Origin: an uncultured Desulfuromonadales bacterium
GTDB taxonomy: Bacteria; Desulfobacterota; Desulfuromonadia; Desulfuromonadales; Geopsychrobacteraceae
Reading direction: 5' to 3'
Assembly (NCBI GenBank): GCA_945787295.1
Contig: CALZHQ010000036.1
Span: 1-25,552, forward strand
DNA length: 25,552 bases
Notes under the pieces: model-generated
Seen by the model: the letters and a program-made list of their open reading frames with translations, nothing else
What the model was told of the DNA's origin: nothing
Database searches by the model: none
Made by a program: the position numbers and the translations under genes
Part shown: piece after piece, positions 14,574 through 15,021 of the stretch
Layout: every line of letters starts with the position of its first letter
Numbering within the stretch: position 1 is the first letter of the stretch

Positions 14574-14731
14574 ACCTAGATTTTACCGAATTATTGAGGC
14601 ATATAAAGTCAATGGATATCAAACATTCCACATCAACACATGCAGGGATCTTCGGGGAGCTGAAAAGTACGAGTCACAGTTCAATACTATTACAAAATCA
14701 CCTAAACGCTAGAAACCATTGGGAGACTGTT

Positions 14732-14956
14732 ATGAAAATCACCATCGAATACTGCAACGAGTGAAACTACCGTGATCGTGCTGCCAGTCTGGCAGACAAA
14801 TTTGCAAACAGACTCTTCGCAGAGTGTCAATTGATTGAATCTTCTGGTGGAGTCTTTGAAGTGGTCGTTAACGGTGAGCTGGTTTATTCGAAAAAAACGA
14901 CTGGCCAGTTTCCAGACGATGATCAATTGCTGGAAAAAGTTGCCGATAAGAGTTAG
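14732..14956 (+). CDS. SelW-like (Rdx family) selenoprotein with in-frame TGA for selenocysteine
   Basis: ATG at 14732, with GGGAG about seven bases upstream, opens a frame of 74 codons interrupted only by a TGA at codon 11 (14762-14764) and ended by TAG at 14954-14956. With Sec at the TGA the start reads KITIEYCNEU, a thioredoxin-like CXXU redox motif (C8, U11) at the place where Rdx proteins have CXXC or CXXU. The rest carries the family signature SSGGVFEVVVNGELVYSKK then TGQFP at 37-61. Length is normal for bacterial SelW-like proteins. A hairpin (14781-14795) lies just after the TGA as a SECIS should. Rdx proteins are small cytosolic thiol/selenol oxidoreductases whose substrates are mostly unknown. 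The organism must then have selA, selB, selC and selD elsewhere. An ordinary stop codon or a pseudogene is the alternative, but intact conserved sequence on both sides argues against it. Confidence 0.9.
14781..14795 (+). promoter_or_regulatory. Bacterial SECIS-like hairpin in the selenoprotein mRNA
   Basis: CTGCC (14781-14785) and GGCAG (14791-14795) form a 5-bp stem closing the loop AGTCT. The loop begins 21 bases after the TGA and has a G followed by T at its second and third positions, as required of bacterial SECIS loops recognised by SelB. The stem extends by two further pairs (T79-A96, G78-C97) if G80 bulges out. It lies inside the coding region, as in known bacterial selenoprotein genes. 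Confidence 0.8.
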
Positions 14957-14962
14957 CAACCA

Positions 14963-15010
14963 GACAGCAATCAGTCGCCTTGCACCATAAGTAGGCGACT
15001 GCTTGCTGTC
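14963..15010. terminator. Long hairpin between the convergent selenoprotein and DUF4197 genes
   Basis: Arms 14963-14980 and 14993-15010 pair over 18 positions with one T-C mismatch, around a 12-base loop. It starts 6 bp after the selenoprotein stop and ends 11 bp before the DUF4197 stop. There is no T-tract on either strand, so it may block transcription or protect mRNA 3' ends rather than act as a classical intrinsic terminator. Confidence 0.6.
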
Positions 15011-15021
15011 GAGTCAGATAG

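Follow-up and report, generated by a model that had tools for sequence, protein, structure and literature searches.

A SelW-like reading frame around an in-frame TGA

The window, that is the whole stretch of 25,552 nucleotides analysed here, carries on its forward strand a short gene of the Rdx family that is probably a selenoprotein gene. The features of the locus are the following.

14721..14725, forward strand: likely ribosome-binding site GGGAG, as judged from the sequence, 6 nt upstream of the ATG at 14732
14732..14956, forward strand: predicted coding sequence of a SelW-like selenoprotein (Rdx, CxxU), 74 residues long with U at position 11 and ending at TAG, with TGA-form relatives
14753..14764, forward strand: redox motif C8-N-E-U11; C..U occurs in 57 of 57 TGA rows of the comparison below, window included
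14762..14764, forward strand: in-frame TGA, probably read as selenocysteine; 56 further rows also have TGA here
14781..14795, forward strand: SECIS-like hairpin, with a six-pair stem (14781-14786 with 14790-14795) and the loop GUC (14787-14789), from folding and covariation
14962..15012 (ends approximate), no strand assigned: strong hairpin between the selenoprotein gene and a convergent DUF4197 gene, -31.4 kcal/mol, z -6.90

The translation of 14732-14956 begins MKITIEYCNEUNYRDRAASLADKF...; it contains a single in-frame TGA, at codon 11, which occupies the second redox position of the CxxU motif, and it ends at a TAG. When the TGA is read through (U was entered as C for profile searches), the Pfam Rdx profile PF10262 covers the whole frame, positions 1-74 of 74, with 74.8 bits (E 6.3e-21; cut-off 22.6 bits), and TIGR02174 CXXU_selWTH gives 62.3 bits (cut-off 34.2). 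The 41-residue open reading frame lying 3' of the TGA scores 43.3 bits with Rdx by itself, so that the segment before it contributes about 31 bits; the match to Rdx proteins, on the whole frame as on the part after the TGA, is not due to chance. The two marks of the family, a full-frame Rdx/SelT-W-H domain and a CxxU motif with TGA at a selenocysteine position common to the homologues, are thus both present. The first-pass annotation had described this frame on both sides of the TGA, the CXXU motif with TGA at its redox position and a ribosome site ahead of the ATG, and all three hold. Among NCBIfam models the best match by E-value is NF041051 SelTWH_Campy, at 78.8 bits; since this is below the curated equivalog cut-off of 88, we do not file the protein under that model.

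Seven distinct sequences of solved structures match the protein at E <= 0.001. The best is 2fa8_A (E 2.5e-10, residues 2-72), which carries CTQC at the motif. Rfam, at gathering scores, gave no match within the window. The neighbouring AMP-binding/acyltransferase protein shares 66% identity with a protein of Geothermobacter hydrogeniphilus and 62% with one of Malonomonas rubra, among the best 120 of 7995 matches. This points to a Desulfuromonadia-like bacterium as the probable source of the contig, which is probably of metagenomic origin. The strong hairpin at 14962-15012 is perhaps a two-way terminator; a terminator scan called none at this place.

A Pfam scan of 20 neighbouring open stretches at 11 loci revealed no partner common beyond close kin. 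Partners recur within close kin only, an exonuclease and a ketol-acid reductoisomerase at L014 and L016, and a transglutaminase at L021 and L024. The convergent neighbour of L001 may be, judging by eye, an iron-dependent repressor like that of L013.

Conservation of the TGA codon among relatives

A scan of genome contigs gave six relatives, one in Desulfocapsaceae, one in Verrucomicrobiales, one in Neomarinimicrobiota and three in Bacillaceae; all six have TGA at the same codon. Within the phylum of the Desulfocapsaceae relative, 54 of 395 genomes contain a relative at E <= 0.001, at 55 places, 50 of which have the TGA inside and five do not. We examined all 55 places, the other five genome-contig relatives and four of the 27 matching plasmid records. 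Leaving out L005, a near copy of L004, and L017, the same place as L001, the comparison comprises 62 Rdx rows: the window, 59 rows from genomes and two from plasmids. TGA stands at the site in 57 of these, each time within the C..U motif, and the frame stays open afterwards in 56. The five rows lacking TGA have Cys (four) or Gly (one, an additional copy adjoining a TGA-form one). Comparison with the Rdx family, Cys homologues included, was what the first-pass annotation had proposed as a check, and an ordinary stop codon followed by a lost frame in relatives was what it had named as evidence to the contrary; the rows show the reverse pattern. Among viral contigs, 20 pattern matches included no relative.

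A few loci deserve mention for themselves. L015 (genome G118) is a TGA-form copy with a further in-frame TAG shortly downstream, which reflects either a sequencing error or decay. In L056 (genome G330) two Rdx copies adjoin, the first with U and the next with Gly at the selenocysteine position. Cys occupies the site in two further plasmid rows, L046 and L048. On the Thermomicrobium roseum plasmid NC_011961.1 (L045, 1501-1740), where thiI adjoins the Rdx gene, the annotated Rdx protein WP_012642931.1 begins after an in-frame TGA (CTSU); as its annotation starts there, this protein is probably a truncated selenoprotein.

Protein databases yielded 29 relatives, 25 of them pieces of 42-59 residues. 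Among the 21 that were examined, four span the site and 17 (43-59 residues) begin after the selenocysteine codon, like P0014 of Desulfuromonas soudanensis (46 aa). This agrees with the earlier expectation that gene callers split such genes: all 17 short relatives examined start beyond the codon. P0002, P0003, P0007 and P0017 display W where the window has U. Both the W rows and the short pieces would most readily come from the way gene callers treat a selenocysteine codon, either as Trp under code 4 or by a late start. The closest full-length database match is P0002 (69% identity over 96%), and a protein tree joins the window to P0002 and P0003 (support 96/87); this tree, made from few columns and with 18 open forks, was used solely to find the nearest rows of the window.

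A hairpin downstream of the TGA covaries

The stem of the SECIS-like hairpin starts 16 nt, and its loop 22 nt, 3' of the TGA. The first-pass annotation had placed a hairpin with GU in its loop 21 bases after the TGA: the GU is there, the distance suits the loop, and for the stem it is too long. With numbering from the first base of the TGA, the stem joins bases 20-25 to bases 29-34 across a three-base loop.

In the window alone the hairpin is not significant, whether compared with shuffles or with synonymous recodings. Against dinucleotide shuffles the z-score is -1.71 for 48 nt, with 13 of 200 shuffles folding as well, and -0.53 for 59 nt, with 55 of 200; against synonymous recodings, the 48 nt that follow the TGA give z -0.96 (p 0.180) in folding energy, and the formation of the six pairs gives p 0.072. 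The same folding test (48 nt, synonymous recoding) gave z from -1.87 to +1.36 for the ten sequences scored. The folding-energy signal being weak, we took covariation as the evidence for the hairpin.

Covariation was measured on 53 distinct TGA sequences, L015 and identical segments having been dropped (57 to 56 to 53). The stem pairs form at 302 of 318 cells, as against 89-157 when the 3' side is slid by one to three bases and 204.9 expected from synonymous recoding. All six pairs are present in 38 of the 53 sequences and at least five in 52, and the loop opens with G in every one. Two of the pairs, 21-33 and 24-30, each join two third codon positions, wobble to wobble. At 21-33, 49 of the 53 sequences have a Watson-Crick pair (C-G 28, T-A 16, G-C 5), the remainder being three T-G and one mismatch; the count in 5000 permutations averaged 23.6 and never exceeded 36. 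At 24-30 the Watson-Crick count is 51, with all four types represented (C-G 46, G-C 3, T-A 1, A-T 1) beside two T-G, for a permutation mean of 41.9 and a maximum of 47. Pair 22-32 forms in 44 sequences and fails in nine (mean 24.7, maximum 34). These permutations do not allow for kinship among the sequences. For the three other pairs, 20-34 (which is invariant), 23-31 and 25-29 (which fails in five of 53), covariation in the 53 sequences is not above permutation. The seven copies without TGA, six with Cys and one with Gly, keep two to four of the six stem pairs.

The contrast with the slid stem and the joint changes at the two wobble pairs suggest that the hairpin behaves as a bacterial SECIS element would. 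Such an element is described, in an excerpt of PMC1088965, as a stem-loop just after the UGA with a small apical loop containing a guanosine. The loop GUC and the covariation over 53 sequences correspond to the description given in that excerpt; the window's own fold is modest.

A possible link between the stem and the protein sequence

Pair 22-32 lies where the stem could weigh on the protein. Of the 53 TGA-form sequences, 21 carry Ala/Ala at residues U+7 and U+10, 15 carry Ser/Glu and 17 some other combination. Wherever U+10 is Glu (15 sequences), U+7 is Ser and the base pair 22-32 is T-A, while all 21 Ala/Ala sequences have G-C; three Ser/Ala sequences show an unpaired T-C. L056b, a copy without TGA, has Phe/Glu. 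On the tree, six changes of the Ser/Glu state are needed, of which only three supported independent pairs can be drawn, and the coupling goes in the same direction in 0.9 of them on average. It is conceivable, though we would lean slightly against it, that the SECIS stem dictates part of the protein here, U+7 and U+10 changing together from Ala/Ala to Ser/Glu because 22-32 must pair, from G-C to T-A. In a literature search that covered titles and abstract openings, none of the papers listed seemed to treat a residue coupling driven by SECIS; it may still be in print.

Selenocysteine machinery in the genomes of relatives

SelA is over the cut-off in 54 of the 55 TGA-form genomes (50 of the phylum and five others), and in six of the six genomes of the genome-contig relatives. 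As 356 of the 395 genomes of the phylum have SelA over the cut-off, this co-occurrence is expected rather than telling and adds little. SelB and tRNA-Sec were searched in 59 genomes, including four without the TGA form. SelB (TIGR00475) passes the cut-off in 53 of 59 and in two of 14 controls, and tRNA-Sec (RF01852) in 54 of 59; because five of the 14 controls pass the family cut-off for tRNA-Sec as well, we counted only the 51 of 59 genomes with at least 58 bits. Of the genomes without the TGA form, G098, which has the Cys form only, gave no SelA match, and G080, G113 and G366 have SelA.

L049 (genome G055) is a TGA form whose genome shows a marginal SelA (E 4.2e-4, under the cut-off) and neither SelB nor tRNA-Sec over the cut-off; the closely related L034 and L039 are in genomes with SelA. 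For G055 either an incomplete genome or a recent loss of the trait would account for this. A few hundred bases separate the TGA gene from selA in the three Bacillaceae genomes. On the Cytobacillus spongiae record NZ_CP089998.1 (L047, 1501-1713), which is labelled as a plasmid, an unannotated TGA-form SelW-like gene is located between annotated selD and selA, and so is an Hsp20 gene.

Interpretation of the locus

Conservation of the TGA and of the protein on either side of it, the covarying hairpin, the selenocysteine machinery of the relatives and the membership in a known family support the reading of the TGA as selenocysteine, as far as comparative data can tell. We consider it very probable that 14732-14956 encodes a stand-alone Rdx SelW-like selenoprotein, in which the hairpin would direct selenocysteine to codon 11 of a C8-x-x-U11 oxidoreductase. 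Conservation and covariation suggest that, during translation, the hairpin whose stem begins 16 nt after the UGA recruits SelB and Sec-tRNA, and that these decode codon 11. Rdx proteins have a thioredoxin-like fold. From the family and the motif, C8-x-x-U11 probably forms a reversible selenenylsulfide, and the product would act as a thiol/selenol oxidoreductase.

The TGA could also have arisen from an ancestral Cys codon by nonsense mutation, in an Rdx gene that has decayed and is dead: a single base change is enough to turn a Cys codon into TGA, and Cys-form homologues are known. Yet 56 further rows, drawn from several phyla, have TGA at this codon, and in 55 of them the frame is open afterwards; the hairpin has undergone compensatory changes; and the W of P0002 and P0003, the tree neighbours of the window, would most simply be a TGA read as Trp. 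Decay is therefore very improbable. The W at the site of P0002, P0003, P0007 and P0017 might rather suggest that this organism uses TGA for Trp (code 4), or inserts some other amino acid by readthrough. This we regard as scarcely more credible: four of the 19 open reading frames picked as likely genes in the window end in TGA, from which we take TGA to be a stop in this organism; a Trp would be unlikely at a redox site; the hairpin is conserved after the TGA; and the W of the database rows is best explained by gene calling under code 4.

A further reading would have the true gene on the opposite strand, the Rdx match being incidental. The antisense frame at 14702-14959, which the first-pass annotation expected standard callers to report, does exist and counts 85 codons; it has no Pfam match at E <= 0.1, against E 6.3e-21 for the forward frame, which makes this the most improbable of the readings considered. 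A selenoprotein gene on the forward strand is what we retain.

Comparison with known SelW-like proteins

The family is well documented. From the part of PMC1088965 available to us, SelW-like CxxU selenoproteins were the most abundant family of the Sargasso Sea set, with 48 genes, and their role in bacteria was called unclear in 2005; our literature search, which reached its sources in part, found no later answer on this role. In the GOS set, a table excerpted from PMC2398784 is headed by the SelW-like family, with 427. Extracts of PMC1794560 list SelW-like selenoproteins for Geobacter sulfurreducens and Desulfotalea psychrophila, and state that they have very few or no Cys homologues in Sec-using organisms; the TGA at 50 of 55 places in our analysis fits the scarcity described in these extracts. 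The section seen of a 2026 review (PMC13188914) places the family under PF10262, with CxxU, and rates its prediction as one of high confidence. For Desulfuromonas soudanensis, a table row in the portion at hand of PMC12013277 appears to give 13 selenoprotein genes. With Geobacter sulfurreducens and Desulfuromonas soudanensis, the use of selenocysteine by Desulfuromonadia-like bacteria is already published.

The gene of the window is thus real but unremarkable within a selenoprotein family already known, which according to the same excerpt of PMC1088965 has been recorded in bacteria since 2005 or earlier. With it, this widespread family gains a Desulfuromonadia-like member, and the tendency of gene callers to cut such genes at the TGA is illustrated once more. 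The bacterial SelW-like family still merits experiment.

With the bacterial SelW-like (SELENOW-like) family, PF10262, the window shares the Rdx domain, the CxxU motif, the in-frame TGA and the downstream hairpin; it differs by nothing in kind, only by a new sequence. NF041051 SelTWH_Campy is its nearest NCBIfam model, yet the score stays under the cut-off of that model. The Cys-form Rdx proteins (2fa8, Atu0228) have the same domain, but where theirs is CxxC, the motif of the window is CxxU.
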